Positions 14,801-56,630 of a DNA stretch of 64,000 bases are shown piece after piece. Under the pieces are notes generated by a model. It was given only the letters and a program-made list of their open reading frames with translations. It did no database searches and was not told the DNA's origin. The position numbers were made by a program, and so were the translations under genes. This DNA is from an uncultured Bacteroidota bacterium (GTDB lineage: Bacteria > Bacteroidota > Bacteroidia > Chitinophagales > Chitinophagaceae), in NCBI GenBank assembly GCA_903839875.1, contig CAIMDZ010000189.1, forward strand, positions 1 through 64,000, read 5' to 3'. How positions within the stretch are numbered: position 1 is the stretch's first letter; the number at the start of each line of letters is the position of its first letter.

Positions 14801-17800
14801 GGTCAGACTATAACTATGACTGATCCATCGGGCGGTGGTACCTGGAGCAGTACTATACCAACCATAGGTTCTATAGTACCTCTGACAGGAGTTCTGACAG
14901 GTGTTAACCCTGGTACTACTACCATAAAATATACATTACCTACCACCTGCTTCACTTCGGTTGTTGCGACGGTTAATCCATTGCCGACACTCTTCTTCGT
15001 AACAGGCGGCGGGGCATTTTGCGCAGGTGGGGCTGGTATGAACGTTGGACTTAGTGGTTCCCAGATAGGGGTAGGTTACCAATTGTATGTTGGTGGTGTA
15101 GCTATTGGTGGTAGTATTCCGGGTACTGGTAGTGCCATTTCTTTCGGAGCTCAATCAACTGCAGGTATTTATACAGTTGTTGCTACCAATCCTGTTACTG
15201 GTTGTACCCGTACAATGACAGGTAGCGTTACCGTTACTGTCAATCCGTTGCCGCCACCAATTGTCGGGCCATCAGCCCTTTGTGTCGGAGCCAGTATTAT
15301 ATTAACAGATGGCGCAGGCCCCGGAGGCTGGGTAAGTAGTAATACTCTGGCAGCCACCTGTGGTGCCGGCCCTAGTTCTACAACTACATTAGTTGGTATT
15401 ACAACAGGTTTATCTACAACGATTACTTATACAATTCCTGCTACCGGTTGTTATACTACGCATTCGGTTACAGTAAGTCCCTCACCCACACCAATCACCG
15501 GCTTGTCCAGTGTTTGCGTGGCAGCATGTATCTCATTATTCGATTCCGTGTTAGGCGGTAGCTGGTCTGCAAGTAATGCAAAAGCCACTGTCACTCCGTT
15601 TACCGGTAGCGTTTGCGGTGTTACGGCGGGTATTGATACGATCACTTATTCACTTGGTACAGGTTGTACTATGACGAAAATAATCACAATTACAGCGGCG
15701 CCAATGCCAATTACCGGTGTTCATACCATGTGCCAGGGCGACTGCGATACCTTCCATGATGCCACAATCGGCGGTTCCTGGTTGTTGGATCCATTATCTG
15801 TAGGCCTTGGTACTATAGGAGCGGGTACGGGTATTTTCTGTGGTACCGCATCAGGTGTGGCTATGCTTTCTTATGCAGCTTCAGGTGGTACCGGCTGTGC
15901 TGTTCAGTACCCGGTTACTATTAATGTGATTCCTGCAGCAATATCAGGAAGCGCCCAGGTTTGCCAGGGATCTACGACACCGCTGGCCACTACAACTCCG
16001 GGTGGCACATGGAGTATCACACCAACTACTTATGCCCTTATCGGAGCTACTACCGGCGTACTCTCCGGAGTTTTGGCAGGATCTCCAAGCACAGTTAAAT
16101 ATACTGCCGGCGGTTGTTCTACAACTATATTGGTTACAGTAAATCCGTTACCGGCAGTTATTACCGGTACAAGCCATGTTTGCCAGGGTTCTACTGTTAT
16201 TCTCACATCTTCACCTGCAACCGGTACCTGGTCAACAACTTCAGGATTCTTCACTGTTACACCCGGTCCAGCAACCTCAACTGTAGTTACCGGTGGTTCT
16301 GTAGGTGTAGGTACGGTTGTCTATACTTTACCTACGGGTTGTTTACGCTCCACTCTGGTTACAGTTAATCTTACTCCGGCTAATATTATTGGTCCTGCTT
16401 CAGTCTGCGTGGGTCACACTGCTATTTTATCTGATGCAACACCTGCCGGCACATGGTCAAGCAGCAATACTGCAGTAGCTACCATAGGGCCCGGTACCGG
16501 AATCGTTACCGGTGTTACTGCAGGCATTGTAACTATTACTTATACGATTGGAAGTTGTATTGCAACTACTTCATTCAGTGTTGTTGCACCACCAATGGCT
16601 ATCGTTGGATCTGCGGCTGTTTGTGTTGGTTCATGTACAACATTCACAGATCCGACACTTGGAGGGACCTGGAGTTCCAGTATGCCTTCTTATGCCACAG
16701 TTAATTCAACTTCAGGTGTAGTTTGCGGTATTGCTTCCGGAACTGTTATTATCTCTTATGGCGCCGGTTCAGGCTGCCAGGCAGTTCTGCCAATAGTCGT
16801 TAACCCTGTTGCTCCAATACTTGGACCTCTCACGGTATGCGAAGGCCAGGATATAAATCTTACAGATACCGCCCTGGGTGGTACATGGCTCAGCAGTAGC
16901 ACTTCAATTGCAACAGTAACCGGTGGTGGTGTAGTACATGGTGTAGCCGGTGGTACTGTTACCATTGATTATCTGTTACCAACCACGTGTATGGCTTCAG
17001 TAGTAGTTACTGTAAATCCAATGCCTGCGGCAATTACAGGTACTACCCACGGTTGTGTGGGTCAGCATGTTCCGCTTTCTACTACTTCTACACTAGGTAC
17101 ATGGACAAGCAGTAATACTTTTGTGGCGACTGTTGATGCTTCAGGTATTGTTACCTGCAACAACCCCGGAATTACTACTATTAGTTACTCTTACTCAAGT
17201 ACTACCGGATGTGCAACTACCATGTTGTTTACCGTTAATGCAAATCCTCCTGCAATAGGCGGGCCAAATGTTGTATGCCTGCATTATACAATTACACTTA
17301 CAGATGCCGGAGTTGGTACCTGGAGCAGTAGTTTATCTACAACTGCCGGCGTAGGATCAAGCGATGGTATTGTTATTGGTAATGCCCTTGGATCTGCAAC
17401 TATTTCATTCACTGCAACAAGTACCGGATGTCCGGCATTACATCCTGTGACTGTTATTAACAGCCCGTTGGCAATTGTTGGTGATTCCAGTGTTTGCCAG
17501 GGGTCTTATACCCTGTATACTGATCCGTCAGGATCAGGTTCATGGAGCAGCAGCCCTTTCCCTGTTGGTTCAATTGATGCTACAACCGGTATGTTTTTTG
17601 CAAGTACTCCCGGTGTTGCAACTATTACTTTCTCCATGGGAGCAGGTTGTAACGCGACCAAGACGGTTACTGTAAATACACTCCCTTGTCCGATTGCAGG
17701 AAGCGCCAATCTTTGTGTTGGGTCTTCCGGACATTATACTGATTGTATACCGGGTGGCGCATGGAGCAGCAGTGATCCTACTGTTGGAACCATTGATCCG

Positions 17801-20409: not shown

Positions 20410-23400
20410 ATGAAATTTAATAAAATACTCCTTGCAATTGCGGCAATAATTTTTACCTCCCAAATATTCGCGCAGACTGTAGAGCACGGCCGTGAGTCGG
20501 ATAGGGGGACAGTGAATTTCACAACACTGGCCAATTATTTGCTGGCACACCCTGAGCCGGTGGTGATACATGAACAGGATGATGACGATGATGGCATTAT
20601 TGTTCCTCATGTTCGCCCGGTTTCAGATTCAACCCTGATCAGGAGAAGGATTTCTTCAAGCCCGGTTCATACCTCTTATTTGCCGGTAACATCACTTCCT
20701 GTTTCCCCCGGCCCTACAGATACTTTTGAGGCTTTCCTGGATAACATTAGTTCGATTCCGCCGGACACGCATGGCGGTGTTGACTCGAATTATTGTGTGA
20801 CTGCAGTTAATCCTCAGGTTACTATTCAGTCAAGGACAGGCGGAGCCGTTTCCTCTGTATCACTCAATGCCTTTTTTAGCTCAGTAAATTCTGTTGGTGG
20901 TACATTTGATCCAAGGGTACATTATGACCCCTATTCGCATCGCTGGATATTGGTTTGTGTGTCGGGAGCAAATAATCCGGGAACTGACACGACTTCCATA
21001 CTGATTGGCGTTACACAAACCAGTAACCCTACCGGCTCGTGGTACCTATACAGGGTACGGGCTTATACTGCTCATACCTACTGGCTCGATTATCCGGATG
21101 TTGGTTTTAATGGCAAGTGGATTACGGTAACAGGCAATTTGTTTCAGAATTCCCCAGGTGGCGGATATGCGGGGGCAAAAGTCTTTGCTTTTAATAAAGC
21201 GAGTTTACTAGCCGGAACGGGGGCGTCTTACACGGCATTCATTCCAAGTACCAGCGACTTCACAATTTGCCCTTCGATCAACTATGATGCCAATAACCCA
21301 AACATGTGGGGTGTTGAGAGCTGGAACGGAACAGTTGGTGGTGGCGGTGTAATGAACCTTTGGAAATTAACAGGTGCTGTTGGTTCGGAATCATTTACTC
21401 ATATCGCATACCCTGCATCACCTAACAACTGGGATTGGGAGTGTAATCTATACTCAGGTACTTCAGGTGGAGATTTTGCACCACAGGCAGGAACCAGTAA
21501 TAAGATTCAGACAAATGACGACAGGGTAACCCAGATGATTTTTATGAATGGCAAATTGTGGTTTGCCCACAATGTATTCCTTCCCTATACCGGAACAACA
21601 AATCCTACAAGGTGTTCGGTGCAATGGTGGCAGATAGATACTGCAGGGACGCCTTCACAGGTTGGCCTGATAGATGATAATACGGGTGCTAATTTCTATT
21701 TTTTCCCATCAGTAGCTGTAAATACGAATAATGATGCATTGATTGGATTTTCGACTTCTTCAAGTTCCAGGTACCCCAGTGCGGCTTATGCTTTGCGTGT
21801 GCACTCCGATGCCACAGATTCCATCAGGCCTTATGATGTGTTCAGGCATGGTTTGGCAAAATATTATAAAACCTATAGCGGTAGTAAGAACAGGTGGGGA
21901 GACTATTCAAGTACCTGCCTCGACCCTATTAACATGGTTGACTTCTGGACAATACAGGAAGCAAGTTCAACACCTGGCAGTGGATACGACAGGTGGGATA
22001 CCTGGTGGGCACATGTTTTGAAGCCATGCTCTACACCTGCTGGTATAACAGGAACCCTGACAGTATGTGTTAGTGCAACAACAACATTGGCTGACGCAAC
22101 ATCAAGTGGAATCTGGACCAGCACTTCTACGAGTGTGGCAACCATTGGATCATCCAGTGGTGTTGTGACAGGCGTATCGGGCGGCACTTCAGTGATAACC
22201 TATTCTACGGGCTCGGGTTGCAATGCCACGGCTACTGTTACGGTGAACCCATTAGCTTCGCCTGGAACTATTAGCGGCAGTCCGACTGTGTGCGTGGGCG
22301 CTACGACAACGCTATCTGCGAGTGGCACCGGCGGTGGCACATGGAGTAGTACGAATACTACCGTAGGAACCGTGTCGACGAGTGGTGTGGTCGCGGGAAT
22401 TTCCGGCGGCACTACCACGATTTCATATACAGTGACGAATGGTTGCGGCGCTGTCGCTGCAACGCAGATTGTAACAGTCAATCCATTGGCGACGCCGGGC
22501 ACCATCAGTGGTACTCCGGTTGTTTGTGTGGGCGCTACAACGTCGTTATCTGCAAGTGGCACCGGCGGTGGCACGTGGAGTAGTACGAACCCTGCAAATG
22601 GCACCGTAACGACAAGCGGCGTGGTTGCAGGTATTGCAGCAGGCACAACAACTATTTCCTACACGGTTACCAATAGCTGCGGCCCTGTTGCGGCTACTCA
22701 GGTCGTTACCATCAACCCATTGGCAACACCTGGCACTATCAGCGGAACATTGTCAGTGTGCACGGGTGCGACAACAGCCCTTGCTGCCAGCGGTACCGGG
22801 GGCGGTACATGGAGCAGCACTAATACGGGTGTTGGTACAGTTTCTTCAGGTGGCGTCGTGGCAGGCCTTACAAACGGAACAACCACGATATCATATACAG
22901 TGACCAACAGTTGCGGCTCAGTTGCGGCAACAGCAGTGGTGACGGTAAATACTACTCCAACTGCATTAACGGGAACGTTCAGCGTATGCGTAGGCTTCAC
23001 TACTACTTTGAATTCTACACCTTCAGGCGGATCGTGGTCAAGCAGTAATGCGGGACTGGCAGCAGTTGGCAGTGGTACGGGTGCTGTCACGGGTATAGCC
23101 GCGGGTACGCCGACAATCACTTATACTATGCCCGGCGGCTGTTTTGCTGTGCACCAGGTAACTGTGAGCACTGCACCAACTACAATTACAGGAACGCTCT
23201 CAGTATGTACGGGATCAACAACTACGTTGAGTTCAACACCCAGTGGCGGAACATGGACGAGCAGCAGTTCCGGAGTTGCATCAGTAGGTACGGGAAGCGG
23301 CATAGTGGCCGGCAACACCGTGGGTACCGCGAATATTACTTATACGGTTACCGGTGGTTGCTATAATACTGCCCAGGTCACGGTTAATCTGACACCGAAT

Positions 23401-26400
23401 GCTATTACAGGTGTATTTGCAATATGCACTGGAGCTACGACAACTTTAAATTGTACACCCTCAGGCGGCACATGGTCCTGTTCTAATCCTGCAATTGGCT
23501 CCATAGGTTCATCATCCGGCGTTGTTAGCGGCTTAACTACCGGCACTGAAAATATTACGTATACACTTCCGGGCGGCTGTTTCTCCATTCAGAATGTAAC
23601 AATTAATACGTCGCCAACAGCAATAACCGGCACAGCTACAGTATGTACAGGTGCAACGACCACATTAAACTGTACACCAACCAGTGGCGTCTGGATAACA
23701 GGCGGAGCAGGCAATGCAACGGTAGGTTCCGGCAGCGGGATCGTTACCGGTGTGACAGCGGGAACAGAATTTGTTACTTATACGCTTACAACAGGATGTT
23801 ACACCGTGCGGCAGGTAACGGTAAACACAACGCCCGGCGCTACAACTGGTACGTTCAGCATATGTAACGGCACAGCAACAACATTGAGTTCCTCTCCTTC
23901 AGGAGGTACGTGGACGAGCAGTAATTCCGGTATTGCGCCAATAGGGTCATCGTCTGGTATCGCAACCGGTGTCGCCTCAGGAACAAATGTGATGACCTAT
24001 ACCCTCACAGGAGGTTGTTTTACAACGCATACATTTACTGTTACTGCCAACCCATCAGCCATAACCGGGACTCTGACCGTATGTACCGGTTCAGCAACAA
24101 CGTTAAGTTCCACGCCAACAGGCGGAACATGGACAACAGGTGGCTTTGGTAATGCGACAGTTGGGTCAGGTTCCGGAATTGTATCCGGTGTTACTGCAGG
24201 AACAGAAAATATTACCTACACCATTTCGGGCGGTTGTTTCTCTACGACAATTGTGACGGTAAATAATAGCCCGTCAGCGATTACGGGTACATTTACTGTG
24301 TGCGTCGGGCTAAACACTACATTAAATTCCACGCCTTCCGGTGGCTCATGGTCATCGGGTGATGTTACGAAGGCTACGGTTGGATCAGGCACAGGTGGCG
24401 TTACAGGTGTGTCAGCCGGAGTTGTAAATATTAGTTATACACTCAGCAGCGGATGTTTTGCGATGCAGCCTGTTACGGTTACTACTACTCCGGGAGCAAT
24501 TTCGGGAGTATCGGCATTGTGTGCCGGAACCTCAACAACGCTTACTGATCCTGCTTCAGGCGGTACGTGGAGCAGCAGTAGCCCCGCAGTAGGTACGGTA
24601 GGTTCATCAAGCGGTGTGGTAACAGGTATTGCAGTAGGTACGACAACGATTACCTACGCACTGGGCAGCGGATGTTTTGCAACACACCCCGTTACCGTAA
24701 CTACTTCGCCTGGGGCCATCAGCGGTTCTGCAACAGTGTGTACGGGTGCAAATACAACATTAACATGTAGCCCCACAGGAGGATTGTGGTCGAGCAGCGC
24801 TTCGGGTATCGGTTCGGTGGGTTCCCTTTCAGGTGTTGTTACCGGGGTAAGTTCGGGTACTGCAATAATAACCTACTCGCTGGGCACCGGTTGTGAGAGT
24901 TACCAGACAGAAGCAGTGAACGCGTCTCCGGCTGCTATCACCGGCACATTCAGTGTGTGTGTGGGAGGGACAACGACGCTGAGTTCAGCAACATCGGGCG
25001 GCTCGTGGACCAGCAGCAATACTGCAATCGGCAGCGTAACACCATCAGGCGGTGTGGTAGGAGGTATTTCAGTGGGTACGGCAACGATTACCTATACACA
25101 GGGTGGCTGCTTTGTGACGCAGGATGCAACCGTTAATACCACACCGACTTCAATTACCGGTACGCCAAACGTATGCGTTGGTTTCACCACAACATTAAAT
25201 TCCACGCCATCAGGCGGTACCTGGAGCAGCACTGTAACAACAGCAGGCACAGTGGGTTCTGCGACAGGCGCAGTATTTGGTGTGGGCGCAGGCGGCACGG
25301 TTATTTCCTATACGCTCGCGGGCGGATGCGGGGCAGGTGCATCGGTGACGGTTTATTCTAACCCGACCGCAATTACCGGCACTGCATCAGTATGCACAGG
25401 ATTGACAACCACGTTGAATTCAACCCCGTCAGGTGGCACATGGACAAGCGGAAGCCCGGCGGTGGCAAGCGTTGGTTCGGCTACGGGTGTTGTATCTGGA
25501 GCTACTGCGGGCGTAGCGGTAATTTCTTACACACAAGGTGCGGGAAGTTGTTTTGCAACAAAGCCTGTGAGCGTGGTTGCAACTCCCGGCGCGATAACCG
25601 GAACACTCAGCGTTTGCTCGGGTGCAACAACAACCTTAAGCAGTTCGCCATCGGGCGGGGTATGGACCAGTAGCAGTACTGCAATCGCAAACATAGGGTC
25701 ATCCACGGGGATAGTGACTGGTGGTTCGGCTGGTACAGCAACCATTACCTACACAATCGGCGGCGCTTGCTATTCAACCATTACAGTAACAACAACACTT
25801 ACTCCATCTGTTTCATTAGGGGCTGATCCTACAGCAGCTTTCGGAGCTACCACAGCCAATCTTACTTACAGCAGTACTTTCGGAAGCCCGTCCACGTATA
25901 GTATTGTGTATAGCGCCCAGGCACATACTGCCGGGTTTACTGATGTTACAGCAGCATCCCTTACAGGTTCTCCAATTGCGCTTACCATTCCGGGAGGGGC
26001 TCCTTCTTCGGTTTATTTTGGTACGGTTACTGTCGCGAATGCATCCTGCACAAGCGCTCAATATTCATTTAATCTGATAATCCGGTCGCCAACCGGAGGA
26101 GCATGGGCTCCAATAACCAACACAGCTCCCCACGGGAATGACGGTGTTATGTTATTGCTCACAGATGGCAGAGTCATGTGTAAAGCAGGCGGCCCAATAT
26201 GGGATGTACTGACCCCGGACATACATGGCAGTTATGTGAATGGCACCTGGTCAACAACCTCATCAATGGCCAATGACAGGCTGTATTTTTCATCCCAGGT
26301 GCTTAGGGATGGCAGGGTGTATGTTGCCGGTGGTGAATATGGGTCAGGAGGCAGTTTAGGTGAAGTTTATAACCCTTTAACCAATACATGGTCAGCGGCT

Positions 26401-29400
26401 CCTTCTTTGGGAATTTTCATCTCTGATGCTAATTCGGAAATTCTTCCGGATGGTCGTGTCCTTCAGGCTTTTGTAGGTGGTGGAACAAGACATACCAGGC
26501 TTTGGGATCCTGTAACAAATACGTATAGTCTGGGGCCGGATTGTTTACGTACCGATAATGAAGCTCCCTGGTTAAAACTCCCAGATAACAGTATCATTTT
26601 CATTGATAATTATAGTACGTCTTCTGAACGGTATGAATTTGCTACAAATACCTGGATAAATGACGGCACTGTGCCGGTAAATGTATATGACCCCTTTGGC
26701 TTTGAAGCGGGAGCAGCATTTTTGTTGCCGGATGGCCGTGGCTTTTTCTTAGGCTCATCCAGTCATAATGCGTTCTACACACCAACAGGTACTACCAGCG
26801 CAGGTTCATTTGCAGCGGCAGCAGATATTCCCGGCCCTTCCGGAACACCTGATGCAGCAGCAGCTATGATGACTACCGGAAATATCCTGGTAGCCGCATC
26901 TCATGTTCCTACTTCCGGTAATCACTTCCCTTCTCCAACTTCCTTCTTTGAATACAACTATCTTACAAACTCATTTGGAGCAGTTACTGCACCCGATGGC
27001 TCAGGAAGTATCGCTATACCTTCCTATTACACAAACATGCTCGACCTTCCCGACGGGTCCGTACTATTTACCAACCTCACAAGCAACCGGTATTATGAAT
27101 ACGTTCCTTCGGGTTCGCCGCTGGTTGCGGGTAAACCGACCGTAAACAACGTAATAAGACTGGATTGTGATACATTCATGGCAACAGGTACTTTATTCAA
27201 TGGAATCAGTGAGGGTGCAGCATATGGCGATGACTGGCAGATGGCTTCGAATTATCCCATTATTCGTTTAACATCCGGGACCAATGTGTATTACGCGCGT
27301 ACGAAGAACTGGAACAGTACAGGAGTGATGAGAGGCGCTGCATTAGATACCACTACGTTTGTGCTTCCTGCAGGTATGCCGGCGGGCGCCTATACACTGG
27401 AGATAGTTGCCAATGGCAATCCTTCTGCACCACTTACGGTAAATACTTCGCTGGCTATCACGCCGACGTCTTTGGCGCTTTGTGTTGGCGCTTCATCTAC
27501 CCTTTCTGATGTATGGCCCGGTGGCACCTGGTCCAGCGCCAACCCGGCAATAGGCTTCGTCGGATCGTCGTCAGGAATTGTTTCAGGCGTCGCTACCGGA
27601 ATTACCACTATTACTTACACCCTCGGTCATTGCTTCAGTACAATACCGGCTACCATTAATGCTTCGCCTGCAGCTATATCACCGATTGGTGGGGCAAGTA
27701 CCTGTGTTGGCTCATCAACCACTTATACTGATGCTACTTCTGGTGGTACCTGGACTAGTAACAATACAGGTATTGCAAGCGTAGGTTCATCTTCCGGAGT
27801 TGTGACCGGTGTTTCCAACGGAGTTACAACTATTACTTATACTCTCGCCGGTGGATGTTTTGCAGTGAGTCCTGTTACTGTTAATACGTCTCCAATGGCT
27901 ATTGTTGGTCCTGCGTCTGTATGCGTTGGGGCTACCCCCACCTATACCGATGCCACATCGGGCGGCACATGGAGCAGCAGCAGTCCTCCGGTGATGACTA
28001 TTGGCGCAGGCACTGGTATTGCGTTAGCTACGTCGGCGGGGACGACCGACATTATTTATTCTACCGGCGGTGGTTGTAATGCAGCATTGACCGTTACCGT
28101 AGTTGCGTCACCAACCCCTATTACCGGGACTACATTGATATGCATCGGCTCAACAAGTACTTTAAGTTCTACCCCATCGGGTGGCACATGGAGCAGCAGC
28201 ACTTCGGGAGTAGCTGCTGTGGGCTCTCTAACCGGGAGTGTATTGGGCGTTACTTCGGGTACTGCCAGTATTTCATATACTTTAGGTACGGGATGCTTTG
28301 TGTTTGCTCCTGTTACTGTTAATGCTATACCCACCATTACCCTCGGTGCAAATCCAATTGTTCCTTCAGGTACCACTAGTGCTAATCTTCCGTATTCAGC
28401 TACATCCGGCAGCCCGTCAACTTATAGTGTTGTATATAGTGGCCCGGCACATACAGCCGGATTTATTGATGTAACAGGTGCAGTATTAACTTCCACGCCC
28501 ATTGTACTTACAGTACCGGGCGCCGCACCATCCGCTGTTTATTCCGGAACATTAACTGTTGCGGCTGGCTCTTGTAACAGTACCGGATACCTTATGAGTG
28601 TAACCATCACCTCCGGCGGTAATACACCCCCGGTGTTCACTGGTGGCAGCCCTCAAAGCATGAGCTTATGCGGATACCCGGTTGCCAATTCTATAGATAC
28701 TTTATTGCAGATCAACGACCCGGATGTTGGAAATATGGAGACCTGGACTGTAATGTCGCCTCCTTCTCACGGAACAATTACTCTGGGCGGCTCTATGTTG
28801 TCAACAGGTGGCATCATAACACCCACAGGGTATAGTTATACAGTTTTCCCTTCTTACATGGGAACTGATGCTTTCACAATGCAGGTTTCCGATGGCGCCG
28901 GAGGTACAGCCTCTACAACTATTAATGTGACAAGTTATACGCCACCTGCTATTGTTATAGTAACAGGCGGAGGTGGTTATTGCACTGGTGGGGTAGGCGT
29001 TAATGTCGGCCTTGCCGGCTCGGCAGTTGGCGTCAATTACCAGTTATATAGGGGAGGCGTTGCTGTTGGCGCTCCTGTTCCGGGTATAGGTAGTGCATTG
29101 AGTTTCGGTTTGCAAACCATTGCTGGTAACTATACAGCCACCGCAACGATAGCAGGCACTTCATGTACTCAGAATATGGCAGGCAGCGTCAATGTAATTA
29201 TTTATCCTTTACCAAATATTTACACAGTTACAGGAGGAGGCAGTTATTGCTCTGGAGGAACAGGAGTACTCGTTGGTCTGAGCAGTTCAGATGTCGGTAC
29301 TGATTACCAGCTTTACAGAGGAGGCTTCCCGGTAGTGGGAACTATAACTGCCGGTACAGGTGCGCCCATCACTTTTGGATTGCAGACAATTGCAGGAACT

Positions 29401-32400
29401 TATACCATTGCTGCGACAATGGGTGGGTTCACTGCATGTATAAATAATATGAGCGGTAGTGTAACTGTTAACATTAATCCGTTACCAGCCGCATATTCTG
29501 TTACCGGCGGAGGAGCTTACTGCATTGGTGGCACAGGTGTTGCTGTGGGCGTGTCAAACTCAGATGTCGGCATTAATTACCAGCTATTCAGAGGTGGCGC
29601 TGCAATAGGTGGCTTAGTGCCGGGTACCGGCTCTGCAATTAGTTTTGGTTTACAGACAGTCGCCGGCATATACACGGTGGTAGCTACCGATGCGACTACT
29701 ACCTGCACTAATCCCATGATTGGCAGTGTCTCTGCATATATCAATCCATTGCCTATAGTATTTTCAGTTACAGGCGGGGGAAGTTATTGTACAGGCGGCA
29801 GTGGCGTTGTTGTTGGCTTGAGTGCATCCTCGTTTGGTGTTAATTATCAATTATACAGGGGCGTTACTTTAGTGGGAAGCCCGGTTGCAGGTACCGGCGC
29901 CGCTATCAGTTTCGGATTACAGACAGTTGTCGGTACCTATACAGTAGTTGGTACAAATACAACAACAGGTTGTGTTAATAACATGTCAGGTAGTGCCGTT
30001 GTAAGTACGGTTACATTACCATCAGTTTATACTATAACCGGCGGTGGCGATTATTGTACCGGCGGCACTGGCCTTCACATAGGCCTCAGTAATTCCGATA
30101 TAGGCGCCAGCTACCAGCTATACCGTGGCGGTTCAGGTGTGGGCGGTCCCATAGCCGGAACCGGATCATCACTTGATTTTGGATTACAGACATTGGCTGG
30201 AACCTATACAATAGTAGCATCCATCACAGGTACTTCATGCACCACTAATATGTCCGGCAGTGCAGTAATCACAATAGATCCATTGCCAACTGTATATACT
30301 GTTACCGGTGGCGGTGCATATTGCTCTGGTGGTTCAGGTGTTCATGTTGGATTGAGCGGTTCTGCAACTGGTGTCAGTTACCAGTTATACCTTGCCGGTA
30401 CGCCTTTGGGTTCGGCTATGTCCGGCACTGGTGCAGCGCTTGATTTTGGATTGCAAACTACATCCGGTGTTTATACAGTAGTAGCTACAAACACCACTTC
30501 AGGCTGCGTAAATAATATGTCCGGTAGTGTAACAGTTAGTATTAGTTCTTTGCCAACGGCATATACAGTAACCGGTGGCGGAGGATATTGTGCCGGTGGC
30601 TCTGGTTTATCAATTGGATTGAGTGGGTCTCAGTCTGGTGTAAATTATCAATTATTTAATGGTGGTACTCCGGCAGGTACCGCTGCTACAGGTACAGGTC
30701 TTGCTATTACCTTTGGTCTTTTTACTACAGCAGGCACTTATACAGTAGTGGCAACAGGAAGTACTACTTCATGTACCAGCAATATGACCGGCAGTGTGAC
30801 GATAACTATCAATCCATTGCCAACTACCTATACCGTTACAGGTGGCGGAAGTTATTGTGCCGGAGGAACCGGAGTGGCAATAGGGTTAAGTAATTCCCAA
30901 TCCGGGGTTAACTATCAGTTATATCATGGCGCCACAACTTCCGGCACCCCTGTTGCAGGCACGGGTGGCGCTATCAGCTTTGGGTTACAAACGATTGCAA
31001 GCTCCTATGCAGTAGTAGCAATTGATGCTGCTACAGGTTGCACCAATTCCATGAGCGGCAGTATAACAGTGTCCATCAATCCGCTACCTGCGGTTGTAAC
31101 TGTTACTGGTGGTGGTGGCTATTGTGCCGGAGGAACAGGTGTGAATGTAGGTTTGGCTGGTTCTTCAGCCGGTATCAGTTATCAGCTTTTCCTGGGTGGT
31201 TCTTCGGTAGGAAGTCCTGTAACAGGCACGGGTTCTGCCCTTAGTTTTGGATCACAAACTACTGCAGGCACTTATACGGTTGTTGCAACAGATCCATCCA
31301 CAGGTTGTATCAGCAACATGTCAGGCAGCGTAACTGTATCTGTTTATTCTTTACCTGCTGTTTATACAGTTACTGGCGGAGGCAGCTATTGTGCCGGTGG
31401 AACAGGCGTAACTGTTGGCCTAAGTGGTTCAAATGCAGGAACCAATTACCAGCTTTACCTTGGGGGAAGCCCGTTAGCAGGTACTGTAACTGCCGGGACA
31501 GGTGGTGCTATTAGTTTTGGATTACGAACATCTGCCGGCACCTATACTGTAGTTGCTACAATGGGTGGCTTCACTGCATGTACAAATAATATGATTGGCA
31601 GCGTTACAGTTGTTATCAATCCATTGCCGACTGCTTACAGTGTTACAGGCGGCGGTGCCTATTGTACAGGCGGAACAGGTGTTGTGGTAGGCCTTTCAGG
31701 TTCGAATAGTGGTATCAATTACCAGCTTTATATGGGCAGCACAGCAGTTGGCAGTCCGGTTGCAGGAACGGGTGCAGCTATAAGCTTTGGTTTACAAACT
31801 GCCGCGGGTACTTATACAGTAGTAGCCACAAACACAACAACAGGATGCGTTGGTAGTATGATTGGAAGTGTTACTGTTTCCATCAATCCGTTACCCACCG
31901 TGTTTACTGTTACAGGTGGTGGTAGCTATTGTGCCGGTGGCACAGGTGCGTCCATTGGTTTAAGCGTATCAACATACGGAGTCAATTATCAGTTATACAG
32001 GGGCGTTACTGCAGTTGGCAGTCCGGTTGCAGGAACGGGTGCGGCTATAAGCTTTGGTTTGCAAACGGTGGCAGGTACTTATACGGTAGTTGCCGCAAAT
32101 GCCACTACAGGTTGCATTAATAATATGTCGGGCAGCGCTGTGGTGAGTACAGTTGCATTACCAACAGTGTACACAGTTACAGGTGGTGGCCATTATTGTG
32201 CAGGCGGCACAGGCCTTCATGTTGGTCTCGGCAATTCGGCTATTGGCGCTAGCTACCAGCTATACCTTGGCCCGGCAATGTTGGGCAGCCCCGTTGCAGG
32301 AACCGGTTTACCCCTCGATTTTGGCTTACATACATCGGCAGGAACATATACAGTTGTTGCAGCAATAACAGGTACTGCCTGTACCACCAACATGGCCGGT

Positions 32401-35400
32401 AGTGTGTCAGTTACAGTAGATACGTTACCCGCAGTTTATACTGTAACCGGCGGTGGTGCATATTGTCCGGGCGGCACAGGTGTGCATATTGGATTAAGCA
32501 GTTCTGCCACCGGTTTCAGTTACCAGCTATTCCTTGGTGGTTCATCTGTTGGTTCGGCAATATCCGGTACTGGTGCGTCGCTTGATTTTGGTTTACAAAC
32601 CACTGCCGGAATTTATACGGTAGTTGCAACAAATACTTCTACAGGTTGTGTAAATAATATGTCCGGCAGTGTAACCGTAAGCATAAGTCCATTGCCAACG
32701 GCCTATACCGTTACAGGCGGTGGCAGTTATTGCACCGGTGGTGCAGGTATACTCATTGGGTTAAGCAGTTCTCAGGCAGGGGTTAATTATCAGTTGTATA
32801 ACGGCGGTTCACCTTCAGGTACGCCGGTTGCAGGCACAGGCGTTACTATCACTTTCGGTCTTCATACTGCTGCTGGTGCATATACAGTAGTGGCAACAAA
32901 CAGCTCTACTGCATGCACAAACAATATGACGGGCAGTGTCACAATAACCATCAATCCACTGCCGGCAGTTTATACCATCACCGGTGGAGGCACGTATTGT
33001 GCAGGAGGTTCTGGCATAACAGTAGGTTTAAGTAATTCTCAGCCCGGTGTTAATTACCAGTTATATCATGGTAGTACAACGTCAGGTGGTCTCATGCCGG
33101 GTACAGGTGCCGTTATCAGTTTTGGTTTACAGACAGTAGCGGGTACTTACACTGTAGTTGCAATAAATGCTGCTACAGGTTGCACCAATAACATGACCGG
33201 GACTGTTACATTATCAATTAATCCGCTTCCTGCTGTTGTTTCAGTTACGGGTGGTGGCGGATATTGTGCCGGCGCTATCGGGATACATGTTGGTTTGAGC
33301 GCTTCTGCTTCAGGTATCACTTACCAGCTTTTGCTGGGTGGTTCATCTGTCGGTAGTCCTGTTGCAGGCACCGGATCAGCGCTTGATTTCGGTTTGGTGA
33401 CCACCGCGGGTATTTACACTGCAACAGCAACAAACCCTGCTACAGGTTGCACAAATACAATGTCTGGCAGTGCAACTGTTTCTATTTCACCGGCTCCGGC
33501 AATATTTACCGTTACCGGTGGCGGAAGTTTCTGCGCAGGAGGCACAGGTGTACTTGTTGGTCTCGGAGGTTCATCAGTTGGTGTTAGCTATCAGCTGTAC
33601 CGTGGTGGAGTAATTCTGTTAGGAAGTTCAATGGCTGGTACTGGTGCGGCTATCAGCTTTGGTTTGCAAACAGTTGCCGGCGCTTATACGGTTGTTGCTA
33701 CCAATACTGGAACCGCCTGTTCAGTTTATATGAGCGGCAGCGCCACAGTTGTCATTAATCCTGCGCCAACCGCTTATACGGTAACAGGCGGCGGAGCATA
33801 TTGTATGGGTGGGACTGGTGTTCTTATAGGTATTTCAGTTTCAGATATCGGTATCACTTACCAACTCTTCCGGGGCGGTACAGCGGTGGGTAGCCCTGTC
33901 GCGGGTACAGGTGCTGCAATTAGCTTCGGTTTACAAACTACCGCAGGTACCTATACGGCAGTAGCCACGAACGCCACCACCGGTTGCTCCGGAAATATGA
34001 CAGGAAGTGTTACGGTCTCTGTCAACCCGCTACCGGCGGTATTCGCAGTTGCCGGTGGTGGTAGTTATTGTTCTGGCTCCGGTTTACATATTTACCTTAG
34101 CGGATCAACTGGTCTTACCAGTTATCAGTTATTCAGGGGAGGTTCACCTGTTGGGAGTCCATTGGCTGGTACAGGCGCCGGTCTTGATTTTGGCTTGTTC
34201 ACGACGCTTGGTACTTATACAATCGCTGCAACTAATACCACAACAGGTTGCACTAGCAATATGTCTGGCAGCGCGGTAATAAGCTCCCTAAGCTCACCCA
34301 CTGCATATACTGTTACAGGTGGTGGCGCCTATTGTGCGGGTGTCACAGGTTTGCATGTTGGGCTTTCTGGTTCCAATACAGGTATTTCTTACCAGCTCTA
34401 CAACAGTGGTACTCCTGTTGGAGGTCCGGTTGCAGGTACAGGTGCCTTACTTGATTTTGGTTTACAGACTACTGCAGGTTCTTACACTGTAGTGGCAACA
34501 GTTTCCGGAACTACCTGCACGGCTACAATGTCGGGTAGTGTTGCGATCACTGTTAATCCGTTGCTAACTGCCTTTACTATAACAGGTGGCGGTGGTTATT
34601 GCTCAGGTGGTACCGGAGTGCATATAAATCTTAGTGGTTCCTCTGTTGGAATTAACTACCAGCTCTACCGCGGTTCAACTTCAGTCAGCAGTCCTATATC
34701 GGGAACAGGCATATCACTTGATTTCGGATTACAAACAACTGCAGGGACCTATACTGTTGTAGCAACTAATCCTATTACAGGCTGTGTCAATACTATGACC
34801 GGAAGTGTAACCGTTGCTGTCAATCCTTTGCCTGCAGTTTATTCAGTTACCGGCGGAGGTAGTTATTGTTCAGGGGGGGCTGGTGTAACTATTGGATTGT
34901 CAGGGTCGCAAGCCGGAGTTAGTTACCAGTTATATGTAGGTGGTGTTCCTTCCGGTAGTTCTATGGCAGGTACAGGGGCAATTCTCAACTTCGGTTTATG
35001 CACTGCTGCTGGCACTTACACAGTTGTTGCTACAAATACAATTACCGGATGTATAAACAATATGTCTGGCAGTGCAACTATCTCAGTTAATCCCAATCCT
35101 GTTGTCTATACTGTAACAGGCGGTGGTGCATCCTGTTCTGGTGGTGCTGGCTTCCACATCGGGTTAAGCGGCTCCGCTGCCGGGGTTACTTACCAGTTAT
35201 ACCGGAGCGGCACTGCAGTAGGTAGCCCTGTTTCAGGTACCGGAGCTTCAATTGATTTCGGCATATTTACCACCGCAGGTACTTATACCGTTAATGCTGT
35301 TTATAGCACTACAGGCTGCACAAATACTATGTCGGGCTCTGCCACTATTACTATCAATCCATCCCCGGCTATTGTTGCGGTTACCGGTGGTGGTGGCTAT

Positions 35401-36447
35401 TGTTCGGGTGGCACAGGTGTGCATGTAGGGCTGGCAGGGTCTGCTGTTGGCATAAATTACCAGTTATATCATAGTGGCACTGCCGTGGGTGGCCCTGTAG
35501 CAGGTATTGGTGGAGCGCTTGATTTCGGGTTGCAAACCGTTGCAGGCTTATATACGGTAGTAGCAACTTACGCCGGTACTTCATGTTCCGGCAATATGTC
35601 AGGTAGTGCTACAGTAACAATATATACACTACCTGCAGTTTATTCAGTTACCGGTGGTGGTAGTTTCTGTGCAGGTGGCAGTGGTGTTCATATCGGTGTA
35701 AGTGGTTCTGCAATTGGCATCAGCTATAAAATGTATTTAAGCGGTACTCCTGTTGGTAGCCCTGTATCAGGCACAGGAGCCGCGCTCGATTTTGGATTAT
35801 ATAATACCGCCGGTGTTTATACGGTAATCGCAACAAATGCGGTTACCGGTTGTACCACAAATATGTCCGGCAGCGCTACAGTTACCATTAACCCATTACC
35901 CTCAATAAGTAGCAGCCTATTTACCGTTGCTCCCACTGCAACCATTACTCTTTCCGGATCACCAGCCGGTGGCTTCTGGGCCAGCAGTGCAACCTCAGTG
36001 GCAACAATTGGATCGGGTACAGGAATTATTACCGGTGTGTCTTTAGGTACTACTGTAATCACCTATACACTACCTACCGGCTGCTTGGCAACACATGTCG
36101 TTAACGTTACCAGTACCGGGCATCGTGAAACACCAGCTGTTGATCCGCAGGGCGGGAATAATACGATTGGTGAAACCAATGTGTACATTGTTCCAAATCC
36201 GAATAATGGCAGGTTTACCCTGAAAGGTACCTGGATTTCTAACGGGGTAACTATTGGTGAGGAAGAATTGTCTCTTGAGATAACCAATTTACTCGGCCAG
36301 GTAATCTATTCCGATAAAATAGTTGCTCATAATGGTGAGATCAATGAAATGATCCGTATTAATAATTCGGTTGCCAATGGCATGTATTTATTGAATATCC
36401 ATTCATCTGACCAGGAACGTTTATTTCATATAGTAATTAAGCAGTAG
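20410..36447 (+). CDS. Giant T9SS-secreted repeat protein B (5345 aa, two propeller heads, 26 VTGGG modules)
   Basis: 5345 aa, about 16 kb. Signal peptide 1-22 (MKFNKILLAIAAIIFTSQIFAQ). Residues 97-537: a propeller-like domain starting SSIPPDTHGGVDSNYCV. 541-1797: 17 Big_2-like modules. 1798-1895: a domain beginning VSLGADPTAAFG. 1897-2347: a kelch/galactose-oxidase-like propeller (DGRVYVAGGEYG, YNPLTNTWSAAPSL) ending in an ISEGAAYGDDWQMASNYPI segment like galactose-oxidase C-terminal domains. 2350-2640: four Big_2 modules. 2640-2735: a second GANP domain. 2737-2845: a cadherin-like domain. 2850-5167: 26 VTGGG modules. Then one Big_2 module and the T9SS sorting domain (5256-5345; VPNPNNGRFTLKGTW, NGMYLLNI). 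Catalytic oxidase activity cannot be shown. The likely role is a very long surface or released adhesin. The reading frame is intact throughout, which argues for selection. Confidence 0.87.
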   Translation: MKFNKILLAIAAIIFTSQIFAQTVEHGRESDRGTVNFTTLANYLLAHPEPVVIHEQDDDDDGIIVPHVRPVSDSTLIRRRISSSPVHTSYLPVTSLPVSPGPTDTFEAFLDNISSIPPDTHGGVDSNYCVTAVNPQVTIQSRTGGAVSSVSLNAFFSSVNSVGGTFDPRVHYDPYSHRWILVCVSGANNPGTDTTSILIGVTQTSNPTGSWYLYRVRAYTAHTYWLDYPDVGFNGKWITVTGNLFQNSPGGGYAGAKVFAFNKASLLAGTGASYTAFIPSTSDFTICPSINYDANNPNMWGVESWNGTVGGGGVMNLWKLTGAVGSESFTHIAYPASPNNWDWECNLYSGTSGGDFAPQAGTSNKIQTNDDRVTQMIFMNGKLWFAHNVFLPYTGTTNPTRCSVQWWQIDTAGTPSQVGLIDDNTGANFYFFPSVAVNTNNDALIGFSTSSSSRYPSAAYALRVHSDATDSIRPYDVFRHGLAKYYKTYSGSKNRWGDYSSTCLDPINMVDFWTIQEASSTPGSGYDRWDTWWAHVLKPCSTPAGITGTLTVCVSATTTLADATSSGIWTSTSTSVATIGSSSGVVTGVSGGTSVITYSTGSGCNATATVTVNPLASPGTISGSPTVCVGATTTLSASGTGGGTWSSTNTTVGTVSTSGVVAGISGGTTTISYTVTNGCGAVAATQIVTVNPLATPGTISGTPVVCVGATTSLSASGTGGGTWSSTNPANGTVTTSGVVAGIAAGTTTISYTVTNSCGPVAATQVVTINPLATPGTISGTLSVCTGATTALAASGTGGGTWSSTNTGVGTVSSGGVVAGLTNGTTTISYTVTNSCGSVAATAVVTVNTTPTALTGTFSVCVGFTTTLNSTPSGGSWSSSNAGLAAVGSGTGAVTGIAAGTPTITYTMPGGCFAVHQVTVSTAPTTITGTLSVCTGSTTTLSSTPSGGTWTSSSSGVASVGTGSGIVAGNTVGTANITYTVTGGCYNTAQVTVNLTPNAITGVFAICTGATTTLNCTPSGGTWSCSNPAIGSIGSSSGVVSGLTTGTENITYTLPGGCFSIQNVTINTSPTAITGTATVCTGATTTLNCTPTSGVWITGGAGNATVGSGSGIVTGVTAGTEFVTYTLTTGCYTVRQVTVNTTPGATTGTFSICNGTATTLSSSPSGGTWTSSNSGIAPIGSSSGIATGVASGTNVMTYTLTGGCFTTHTFTVTANPSAITGTLTVCTGSATTLSSTPTGGTWTTGGFGNATVGSGSGIVSGVTAGTENITYTISGGCFSTTIVTVNNSPSAITGTFTVCVGLNTTLNSTPSGGSWSSGDVTKATVGSGTGGVTGVSAGVVNISYTLSSGCFAMQPVTVTTTPGAISGVSALCAGTSTTLTDPASGGTWSSSSPAVGTVGSSSGVVTGIAVGTTTITYALGSGCFATHPVTVTTSPGAISGSATVCTGANTTLTCSPTGGLWSSSASGIGSVGSLSGVVTGVSSGTAIITYSLGTGCESYQTEAVNASPAAITGTFSVCVGGTTTLSSATSGGSWTSSNTAIGSVTPSGGVVGGISVGTATITYTQGGCFVTQDATVNTTPTSITGTPNVCVGFTTTLNSTPSGGTWSSTVTTAGTVGSATGAVFGVGAGGTVISYTLAGGCGAGASVTVYSNPTAITGTASVCTGLTTTLNSTPSGGTWTSGSPAVASVGSATGVVSGATAGVAVISYTQGAGSCFATKPVSVVATPGAITGTLSVCSGATTTLSSSPSGGVWTSSSTAIANIGSSTGIVTGGSAGTATITYTIGGACYSTITVTTTLTPSVSLGADPTAAFGATTANLTYSSTFGSPSTYSIVYSAQAHTAGFTDVTAASLTGSPIALTIPGGAPSSVYFGTVTVANASCTSAQYSFNLIIRSPTGGAWAPITNTAPHGNDGVMLLLTDGRVMCKAGGPIWDVLTPDIHGSYVNGTWSTTSSMANDRLYFSSQVLRDGRVYVAGGEYGSGGSLGEVYNPLTNTWSAAPSLGIFISDANSEILPDGRVLQAFVGGGTRHTRLWDPVTNTYSLGPDCLRTDNEAPWLKLPDNSIIFIDNYSTSSERYEFATNTWINDGTVPVNVYDPFGFEAGAAFLLPDGRGFFLGSSSHNAFYTPTGTTSAGSFAAAADIPGPSGTPDAAAAMMTTGNILVAASHVPTSGNHFPSPTSFFEYNYLTNSFGAVTAPDGSGSIAIPSYYTNMLDLPDGSVLFTNLTSNRYYEYVPSGSPLVAGKPTVNNVIRLDCDTFMATGTLFNGISEGAAYGDDWQMASNYPIIRLTSGTNVYYARTKNWNSTGVMRGAALDTTTFVLPAGMPAGAYTLEIVANGNPSAPLTVNTSLAITPTSLALCVGASSTLSDVWPGGTWSSANPAIGFVGSSSGIVSGVATGITTITYTLGHCFSTIPATINASPAAISPIGGASTCVGSSTTYTDATSGGTWTSNNTGIASVGSSSGVVTGVSNGVTTITYTLAGGCFAVSPVTVNTSPMAIVGPASVCVGATPTYTDATSGGTWSSSSPPVMTIGAGTGIALATSAGTTDIIYSTGGGCNAALTVTVVASPTPITGTTLICIGSTSTLSSTPSGGTWSSSTSGVAAVGSLTGSVLGVTSGTASISYTLGTGCFVFAPVTVNAIPTITLGANPIVPSGTTSANLPYSATSGSPSTYSVVYSGPAHTAGFIDVTGAVLTSTPIVLTVPGAAPSAVYSGTLTVAAGSCNSTGYLMSVTITSGGNTPPVFTGGSPQSMSLCGYPVANSIDTLLQINDPDVGNMETWTVMSPPSHGTITLGGSMLSTGGIITPTGYSYTVFPSYMGTDAFTMQVSDGAGGTASTTINVTSYTPPAIVIVTGGGGYCTGGVGVNVGLAGSAVGVNYQLYRGGVAVGAPVPGIGSALSFGLQTIAGNYTATATIAGTSCTQNMAGSVNVIIYPLPNIYTVTGGGSYCSGGTGVLVGLSSSDVGTDYQLYRGGFPVVGTITAGTGAPITFGLQTIAGTYTIAATMGGFTACINNMSGSVTVNINPLPAAYSVTGGGAYCIGGTGVAVGVSNSDVGINYQLFRGGAAIGGLVPGTGSAISFGLQTVAGIYTVVATDATTTCTNPMIGSVSAYINPLPIVFSVTGGGSYCTGGSGVVVGLSASSFGVNYQLYRGVTLVGSPVAGTGAAISFGLQTVVGTYTVVGTNTTTGCVNNMSGSAVVSTVTLPSVYTITGGGDYCTGGTGLHIGLSNSDIGASYQLYRGGSGVGGPIAGTGSSLDFGLQTLAGTYTIVASITGTSCTTNMSGSAVITIDPLPTVYTVTGGGAYCSGGSGVHVGLSGSATGVSYQLYLAGTPLGSAMSGTGAALDFGLQTTSGVYTVVATNTTSGCVNNMSGSVTVSISSLPTAYTVTGGGGYCAGGSGLSIGLSGSQSGVNYQLFNGGTPAGTAATGTGLAITFGLFTTAGTYTVVATGSTTSCTSNMTGSVTITINPLPTTYTVTGGGSYCAGGTGVAIGLSNSQSGVNYQLYHGATTSGTPVAGTGGAISFGLQTIASSYAVVAIDAATGCTNSMSGSITVSINPLPAVVTVTGGGGYCAGGTGVNVGLAGSSAGISYQLFLGGSSVGSPVTGTGSALSFGSQTTAGTYTVVATDPSTGCISNMSGSVTVSVYSLPAVYTVTGGGSYCAGGTGVTVGLSGSNAGTNYQLYLGGSPLAGTVTAGTGGAISFGLRTSAGTYTVVATMGGFTACTNNMIGSVTVVINPLPTAYSVTGGGAYCTGGTGVVVGLSGSNSGINYQLYMGSTAVGSPVAGTGAAISFGLQTAAGTYTVVATNTTTGCVGSMIGSVTVSINPLPTVFTVTGGGSYCAGGTGASIGLSVSTYGVNYQLYRGVTAVGSPVAGTGAAISFGLQTVAGTYTVVAANATTGCINNMSGSAVVSTVALPTVYTVTGGGHYCAGGTGLHVGLGNSAIGASYQLYLGPAMLGSPVAGTGLPLDFGLHTSAGTYTVVAAITGTACTTNMAGSVSVTVDTLPAVYTVTGGGAYCPGGTGVHIGLSSSATGFSYQLFLGGSSVGSAISGTGASLDFGLQTTAGIYTVVATNTSTGCVNNMSGSVTVSISPLPTAYTVTGGGSYCTGGAGILIGLSSSQAGVNYQLYNGGSPSGTPVAGTGVTITFGLHTAAGAYTVVATNSSTACTNNMTGSVTITINPLPAVYTITGGGTYCAGGSGITVGLSNSQPGVNYQLYHGSTTSGGLMPGTGAVISFGLQTVAGTYTVVAINAATGCTNNMTGTVTLSINPLPAVVSVTGGGGYCAGAIGIHVGLSASASGITYQLLLGGSSVGSPVAGTGSALDFGLVTTAGIYTATATNPATGCTNTMSGSATVSISPAPAIFTVTGGGSFCAGGTGVLVGLGGSSVGVSYQLYRGGVILLGSSMAGTGAAISFGLQTVAGAYTVVATNTGTACSVYMSGSATVVINPAPTAYTVTGGGAYCMGGTGVLIGISVSDIGITYQLFRGGTAVGSPVAGTGAAISFGLQTTAGTYTAVATNATTGCSGNMTGSVTVSVNPLPAVFAVAGGGSYCSGSGLHIYLSGSTGLTSYQLFRGGSPVGSPLAGTGAGLDFGLFTTLGTYTIAATNTTTGCTSNMSGSAVISSLSSPTAYTVTGGGAYCAGVTGLHVGLSGSNTGISYQLYNSGTPVGGPVAGTGALLDFGLQTTAGSYTVVATVSGTTCTATMSGSVAITVNPLLTAFTITGGGGYCSGGTGVHINLSGSSVGINYQLYRGSTSVSSPISGTGISLDFGLQTTAGTYTVVATNPITGCVNTMTGSVTVAVNPLPAVYSVTGGGSYCSGGAGVTIGLSGSQAGVSYQLYVGGVPSGSSMAGTGAILNFGLCTAAGTYTVVATNTITGCINNMSGSATISVNPNPVVYTVTGGGASCSGGAGFHIGLSGSAAGVTYQLYRSGTAVGSPVSGTGASIDFGIFTTAGTYTVNAVYSTTGCTNTMSGSATITINPSPAIVAVTGGGGYCSGGTGVHVGLAGSAVGINYQLYHSGTAVGGPVAGIGGALDFGLQTVAGLYTVVATYAGTSCSGNMSGSATVTIYTLPAVYSVTGGGSFCAGGSGVHIGVSGSAIGISYKMYLSGTPVGSPVSGTGAALDFGLYNTAGVYTVIATNAVTGCTTNMSGSATVTINPLPSISSSLFTVAPTATITLSGSPAGGFWASSATSVATIGSGTGIITGVSLGTTVITYTLPTGCLATHVVNVTSTGHRETPAVDPQGGNNTIGETNVYIVPNPNNGRFTLKGTWISNGVTIGEEELSLEITNLLGQVIYSDKIVAHNGEINEMIRINNSVANGMYLLNIHSSDQERLFHIVIKQ
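22030..25800 (+). repeat. First Big_2 module array of giant protein B (17 copies)
   Basis: Seventeen in-frame modules counted by the GG-x-W marker. Modules two to four (about 22256-22960) are closely similar at the DNA level with 240-bp spacing, indicating recent tandem duplication. The rest are more diverged. Confidence 0.8.
28960..35910 (+). repeat. Array of 26 VTGGG-type modules (~267 bp each)
   Basis: Each module has the order VTGGGxYCxGG, then V.VGLSGS, then NYQLYRGG..VGSPVAGTG, then ISFGLQT.AGTYTVVAT, then GC.NNMSGSVTV.INPLP. I counted 26 copies. Each has about two cysteines, one after TGGG and one before NNM. No insertion breaks the frame. Confidence 0.9.
29227..35646 (+). repeat. Higher-order repeat: three tandem units of eight VTGGG modules
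   Basis: Units run 29227-31368, 31369-33510 and 33511-35646, so periods are 2142, 2142 and 2136 bp (714, 714 and 712 aa). Modules 2, 10 and 18 correspond, as do 3/11/19, 4/12/20 and so on. Diagnostic residues recur at the same place, such as ATMGGFTAC in modules 2 and 10, YQLYRGVT in 4 and 12, SGSAVVSTV in 4 and 12, and YHG.TTSG in 8 and 16. Module 26 opens a fourth unit at 35647. Confidence 0.88.
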
Positions 36448-56361: not shown

Positions 56362-56630
56362 TCCAGCCACAGGTATATTTTTTACCAAATTAATTCTTTT
56401 ATTAATTTCAACCTAATAATCGGGTATATATTTTGTTAACTCAATTTATATAGTATGAAAAATTATATTTAAATAATAACCAGGAACTTAGAAGTCCTGT
56501 TATACTGGATATTATGGATTTTTTTTGGTGGAAAGGGGATCGCAAATTATATGCTTTATGAGCATGCTTACGCCAACCCTGTATTCGGAAGGATATTTTG
56601 TTTTAAGTTTATTTATAAGGTATTTATGAA

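Follow-up and report, generated by a model that had tools for sequence, protein, structure and literature searches.

The copying of several domains in one step, frequently within the interior of an array and recognizable as a peak in autocorrelation, is established for domain-repeat proteins, and multi-domain block duplication is a known way in which repeat proteins grow; nebulin with its seven-domain unit is one case. 'Expansion of Protein Domain Repeats' (PMC1553488) describes such repeats as much commoner in eukaryotes and reports that the Ig domains it studied mostly expand singly. The A-band super-repeats of titin consist of units of 7 and 11 domains, present in 6 and 11 copies, in which Ig and FnIII domains are mixed and domains at equivalent positions are most alike; a correspondence to a thick-filament period is proposed in that work (PMC10665226). 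On bacterial surfaces, long single chains of tandem stalk domains are described for the fibrillar adhesins (PMC8286594) and for the periscope proteins, rods of tandem domains whose highly identical repeats vary in length (PMC9704523). The giant protein GhpA, the grappling hook of Aureispira sp. CCB-QB1, likewise has a long Ig-like stalk (PDB 9flp and seven more entries), and according to a paper citing the GhpA work the type IX system has a part in Aureispira predation (PMC13319060, PMC12421860). In titles and abstract openings, among which subscription journals were thinly covered, we found no description of higher-order repeats in Ig_7 stalks.

The locus compared here with these systems lies in a stretch of 64,000 nucleotides from an uncultured Bacteroidota bacterium of the family Chitinophagaceae (contig CAIMDZ010000189.1 of assembly GCA_903839875.1, positions 1 to 64,000; hereafter the window, to which all positions refer). 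An open reading frame of 5345 residues on the forward strand, already delimited in an initial annotation of this DNA, is present at 20410–36447. It encodes, in order, a start that resembles a signal peptide when read by eye, an N-terminal domain, Big_2-type repeats, a kelch-like domain, Big repeats, 26 tandem Ig_7 modules (28960–35913) and a C-terminal region containing a type IX secretion sorting domain (35914–36447). Modules 2–25 together score 253.4 bits against a cut-off of 27.3 for Ig_7 (PF19081, Ig-like domain CHU_C associated), and 16 of the 26 modules match singly at E ≤0.01. The modules are 89 residues long in 22 cases out of 26, and the same two conserved cysteines are found in all of them, which suggests one disulfide per module. 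The span 29227–35646, for which the initial annotation had claimed an exact repeat of eight-module units, corresponds to modules 2–25. These are divided below into block A (modules 2–9, 29227–31368, 714 residues), block B (modules 10–17, 31369–33510, 714 residues) and block C (modules 18–25, 33511–35646, 712 residues), and modules 1 (28960–29226) and 26 (35647–35913) lie outside the blocks.

When the C-terminal region was scanned alone, the sorting domain scored 34.0 bits with PF18962 (cut-off 27) and 31.4 bits with TIGR04183 (cut-off 23), the latter falling to 25.3 bits within a longer piece. The genome contains at least 150 sorting-domain matches and a sprA gene (SprA_N, E 7e-156), for which none of 14 control genomes gave a match. 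The 5345-residue protein probably forms a stalk exported by type IX secretion and, by analogy with the fibrillar adhesins, would likely serve to hold its N-terminal domains, the kelch-like domain among them, away from the cell. Like the fibrillar adhesins, it is a long surface protein of one chain whose stalk domains stand in tandem, but no known adhesive domain was identified in it. It shares the single-chain rod of tandem domains with the periscope proteins too, but its modules are only about 61% identical in DNA (mean 0.615, best pair 0.79) and Ig_7 arrays are often stable in length, and this level of repeat identity speaks against a periscope assignment.

A structural model of one 714-residue block (AlphaFold; pLDDT 88.4, pTM 0.40) consists of eight Ig-like sandwiches, the pTM being too low for the model to be used for the turn of a fibre. 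The solved structures nearest to it are pieces of GhpA, which took ranks 1, 2 and 5 with Foldseek, and GhpA chains filled ranks 1–7 and 9 with VIA (Z 10.7–15.4) at 17–25% identity in the structural alignments. A profile search reached the GhpA stalk at E 1.7e-75, over about residues 1202–4770; searches of solved structures gave no match when the query was one sequence covering the array and the C-terminus, or the module profile alone. The stalk modules are likely homologous to those of the GhpA stalk. The N-terminal 2197 residues, compared with solved structures by sequence only, returned four matches, three to kelch proteins and one to intimin, and GhpA was not among them.

The eight-module periodicity proposed in the initial annotation was borne out. 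DNA identity between modules eight apart is 0.678 over 18 pairs, compared with 0.573–0.629 at other lags; the excess at lag 8 was equalled in none of 20,000 shuffles for protein and for DNA each, and in none of 2,000 DNA shuffles when the best of lags 1–18 was taken. The array thus shows the peak at a multi-domain lag by which block-duplicated repeats are recognized. The copies are not exact, with identities in register of 0.720 (DNA) and 0.737 (protein) for A and B, 0.650 and 0.659 for B and C, and 0.643 and 0.636 for A and C. The array contains no repeated 40-mer, and the repeated 30-mers amount to three overlapping ones at a single pair of places. Blocks compared in shifted registers gave 0.599–0.621 for DNA and 0.585–0.629 for protein, values that the B–C and A–C comparisons exceed by little. 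When the eight modules of one block were paired with those of another in all 40,320 ways, only the true pairing was as good as the true one for A and B, while the in-register pairing ranked 87th by DNA and 12th by protein for B and C, and 4th and 291st for A and C. In a sliding profile at lag 8 the excess starts at the end of module 1 or the start of module 2 and persists until roughly mid-module 9, apart from drops inside modules 3 and 8; by the end of module 9 it is gone, and a weak excess over background returns between the last third of module 10 and the end of module 11. The position of these edges near the module 1/2 boundary and in module 9 indicates the trace of one eight-module tandem copy together with an older echo. 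Among 1773 modules, the nearest by DNA is the partner eight modules ahead for six of the eight modules of A and the partner eight modules back for seven of the eight modules of B; overall, 196 of the 1773 have their nearest neighbour within their own array.

Other observations offered earlier in support of three equivalent blocks carry less weight. The constant spacing of equivalent modules (2142 and 2136 bp) says little, because with 22 of 26 modules equally long any lag gives near-constant spacing. Nor is a shortening of module 20 by two codons the reason for the smaller distance: that module has 88 residues, and the two spacings differ because modules 2 and 10 have 91 residues, module 18 has 90 and module 20 has 88. 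The motifs described as recurring in register (ATMGGFTAC, YQLYRGVT, SAVVSTV and YHG.TTSG) are indeed shared by modules 2/10, 4/12, 4/12 and 8/16, respectively, but are absent from modules 18, 20 and 24 of block C. In the best module tree, six of the eight A/B pairs form clades but only three of the eight triples do so (3/11/19, 4/12/20 and 6/14/22, with support values of 52–92). Constraining the remaining five triples, or the pairs 3/11 and 9/17, was not rejected (AU p 0.13–0.44), and by the refuting criterion set in the initial annotation three in-register blocks are neither established nor ruled out by the tree. Modules 11 (31642–31908) and 19 (33781–34047) are 73% identical in DNA compared with 64% for modules 3 and 11; that module 11 is closest to 19 and not to 3 suggests local exchange between blocks.

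Matches to the block were found in all 24 genomes of the same genus and in 8 of 15 from the rest of the order (40 genomes searched), and the 36 named loci of relatives include titles such as Bacteroidetes bacterium, Sphingobacteriales bacterium, Taibaiella sp. and Flavipsychrobacter sp. One of these relatives, the genome G011, carries a gene (L049) with the same order of kelch, Big and Ig_7 parts, 18 modules and, as judged by eye, a stretch resembling a signal peptide ahead of the kelch domain. It was the only one with Ig_7 modules among the 13 reading frames read that contain this kelch domain, three of which are cut by an end. Aligned with L049, modules 1–8 of the window array correspond to modules 1–8 and modules 17–26 to modules 9–18, with a gap of eight between them (z 9.0); a single eight-module gap arose in none of 5,000 shuffles, and 26 equals 18 plus 8. 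In all eight modules the DNA of A resembles that of B more than either resembles L049, and the copy therefore probably arose after the two lineages split, although in protein module 5 of L049 is equally similar to modules 5 and 13 of the window (0.70 each). Synonymous divergence between A and B is about 1.5, so that dates are rough. A second 18-module array (L157, from AM_0832) aligns with that of L049 without insertion or deletion at a dS of about 1.1, although its contig ends there.

The same permutation scheme was applied to the relative. Modules 2–9 of L049 fit A in register at rank 5 (DNA) and 1 (protein) of 40,320 and B at ranks 137 and 33, and modules 10–17 fit C at rank 1 for both, which places the division between A and C before the split. 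The crosswise comparisons lean to one register as well (616 and 826 for L049 modules 2–9 against C, 215 and 637 for modules 10–17 against A, of 40,320), and this speaks for an old eight-module duplication. Within L049 itself, modules 2–9 against 10–17 gave no significant register (6555 and 4001 of 40,320). The 23-module array L048 of the same genome aligns with the window with a gap of only three modules (z 11.2), which speaks against a recent copy in the window lineage; this, together with the affinity of module 11 for 19, indicates that conversion or mosaic exchange took part. In L048 and in the two 15-module arrays L009 (G000:C53) and L051, the outer modules match those of the window and the differences consist of whole internal modules, three, five or eight in number; for L009, a 9-module array leaning to the same start was also seen.

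The history that suits these data best has a single eight-module copy made in the window lineage, following an older, faint one. We put a probability of roughly 80% on the joint reading that the protein is a type IX stalk in which modules 2–9 were tandemly duplicated in the window lineage, an older duplication having earlier given block C, and that eight is the size of a single recombination event and not a selected unit. The recent copy would most simply have come about by unequal recombination between similar modules, after which single modules would have diverged under the ordinary constraint on their fold, with some local exchange. Of the earlier proposal that the array grew by eight-module blocks, the part that concerns A and B stands, through their similarity and the eight-module gap to L049, while block C is an old and weak echo. 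It is unlikely, in our judgement, that three eight-module blocks were instead already present in the ancestor, that gene conversion homogenized A and B, and that the 18-module relative lost one block. An older 26-like array followed by loss in L049 could fit the three-module gap between the window and L048, and the 0.73 identity of modules 11 and 19 is a sign that local exchange does occur; however, the A–B similarity spans most of the eight modules with its edges near module boundaries, and the closeness of A to B relative to L049 extends to every one of the eight. An artefact, in which the assembler duplicated or collapsed a block, is hardly credible. The genome is a draft of 226 contigs and tandem repeats can mislead assembly, as PMC6868369 describes, but a copy made by the assembler would be all but identical; here 28% of sites are different between copies, the frame is open throughout and the array has no shared 40-mer.

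The initial annotation had further read the preserved frame and protein pattern as selection on the eight-module unit, perhaps as one turn of a fibre. This was not supported: over 74 other arrays the mean z at lag 8 is 0.16 and one array exceeds 3, and constraint on each module together with shared descent accounts for the preserved frame and pattern. The dN/dS ratio is 0.11 between A and B, 0.10 between L049 and A, and 0.07 between the 18-module arrays of L049 and AM_0832. At positions variable in the family the A–B value is 0.19, which counts neither for nor against selection at the level of blocks because synonymous sites are near saturation. Selection on the unit itself, because it forms, say, one helical turn of the fibre or a repeating pattern of binding, nevertheless has several points in its favour. 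The register is common to all three blocks, though weak for C, and it persists when the 11/19 or 3/19 pair is left out, at ranks 68 (DNA) and 10 (protein) of 5040 for B and C and ranks 4 and 167 for A and C; the crosswise fits to L049 extend it across two species. The arrays L048 and L051 of G011, with 23 and 15 modules, differ by eight, the array L193 has its best lag at 8 (p 0.055), and lag-8 z was above 1.5 in 8 of a first set of 30 arrays. Against this, the L048/L051 difference aligns as gaps of three and five and not as a single eight, L049 lacks a significant register of its own, array size is a multiple of eight in just 7 of 86 complete arrays, and other arrays repeat at lags of 1, 2 or 5. 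In the first set the Stouffer z was 1.57 at lag 8 compared with 6.81, 5.37 and 4.29 at lags 2, 3 and 5. We consider a selected eight-module unit very improbable, and find no sign here that it makes a difference to the bacterium whether modules come in eights. With the domain-repeat proteins of the literature the window array shares the copying of several domains in one step; it differs in being the Ig_7 stalk of a bacterium, with a single clear duplication and a single faint one. The likeness to titin lies in the similarity of equivalent positions; the window modules are all of one type and have no known partner period.

Period 8 was also considered as a rule for the family and rejected. The arrays were drawn from match lists and are a sample of the family; arrays sharing at least 40% of their module sequences with one already kept were removed (104 to 94), and the lag test was restricted to those with at least 12 modules, namely the window array and 74 others (75 of 94). 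Eleven arrays including that of the window had a best lag at p ≤0.01, and in the other ten this lag was 5 (L170, L207, L210), 2 (L186, L211, L196, L212) or 1 (L065, L063, L061), L065 having given lag 5 in a narrower scan and lag 1 in the wider one. The array L170 (JAUHYD010000010.1), with at least 45 modules, has a five-module period in which modules 3–20 are about 75% identical in DNA to those five further on, and its copies are closer than those of the window.

For the comparison of array lengths, arrays cut by the end of the DNA were removed (94 to 86) and those under eight modules were left out. Among the 86 complete arrays, which come from the genus and named relatives and include L010, L013, L015, L052, L053 and L054, 22 have exactly 20 modules, five have 21, one has 19 and none has 22, and a further 22 have 11 or 12; G011 alone contains five arrays of exactly 20. 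In the 20-module arrays, once near-twins were removed, 171 of 400 modules have their nearest match at the same position in another such array, where 5% would be expected by chance, and the corresponding counts are 32 of 121 for 11-module, 44 of 108 for 12-module and 19 of 105 for 21-module arrays. This correspondence by position tends to be seen in 20-module arrays also between paralogues of one genome. In the first 30 disjoint best array pairs, 19 are of equal and 11 of unequal length, under a pairing score that penalizes gaps and so favours equality. Position-matched modules and equal lengths indicate that many arrays were inherited whole, whereas the one in the window has grown. Deep conservation of tandem repeats is described in PMC3995336 for human proteins within eukaryotes, and the number of Ig_7 repeats is likewise often kept across long divergence. 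Modules about 60% identical may recombine poorly, or the stability may be read as selection on stalk length. A more speculative suggestion, which we hold as possible but doubtful, is that Ig_7 number acts as a ruler in this genus, type IX stalks being fixed at 20 modules (also at 11–12) because the chains assemble in register, perhaps like GhpA, and the window protein having kept its function after the insertion of eight. The window array offers a bacterial example of a stalk lengthened by a block of several domains, for which a relative shows the shorter state. The larger collection of arrays speaks against a favoured eight-module unit and for module numbers that are stable over large divergence in many stalks. 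It raises the question of what sets stalk length in the Bacteroidota surface giants with a grappling-hook-like stalk.

The N-terminal domain (about 547 residues, 20410–22050, forward strand) has no Pfam match at E 0.1, and its near-full-length matches in relatives sit in open frames of 402–3004 residues (40 genomes searched). The kelch-like domain (26080–27510, forward strand) scores 36.9 bits with Kelch_4 (cut-off 21.6), and its top match outside its own genome is the L049 gene, at 63% (30 genomes searched). The two domains, joined within 20410–27510 of the window, sit on different contigs in G011, the match to the N-terminal domain on C96 and the kelch gene on C112, and in the 13 kelch reading frames of relatives that were read the kelch domain begins within the first 215 residues. 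Judged from sequence, the frame at 20410–36447 looks like a fusion of an N-terminal and a kelch part, which could be either a real fusion or an assembly join. Two other giant open reading frames with a sorting domain are present in the window, one of 2771 residues with Big_2-type repeats (11825–20140) and one of 2849 residues with Big_2-type and NHL repeats (47839–56388).
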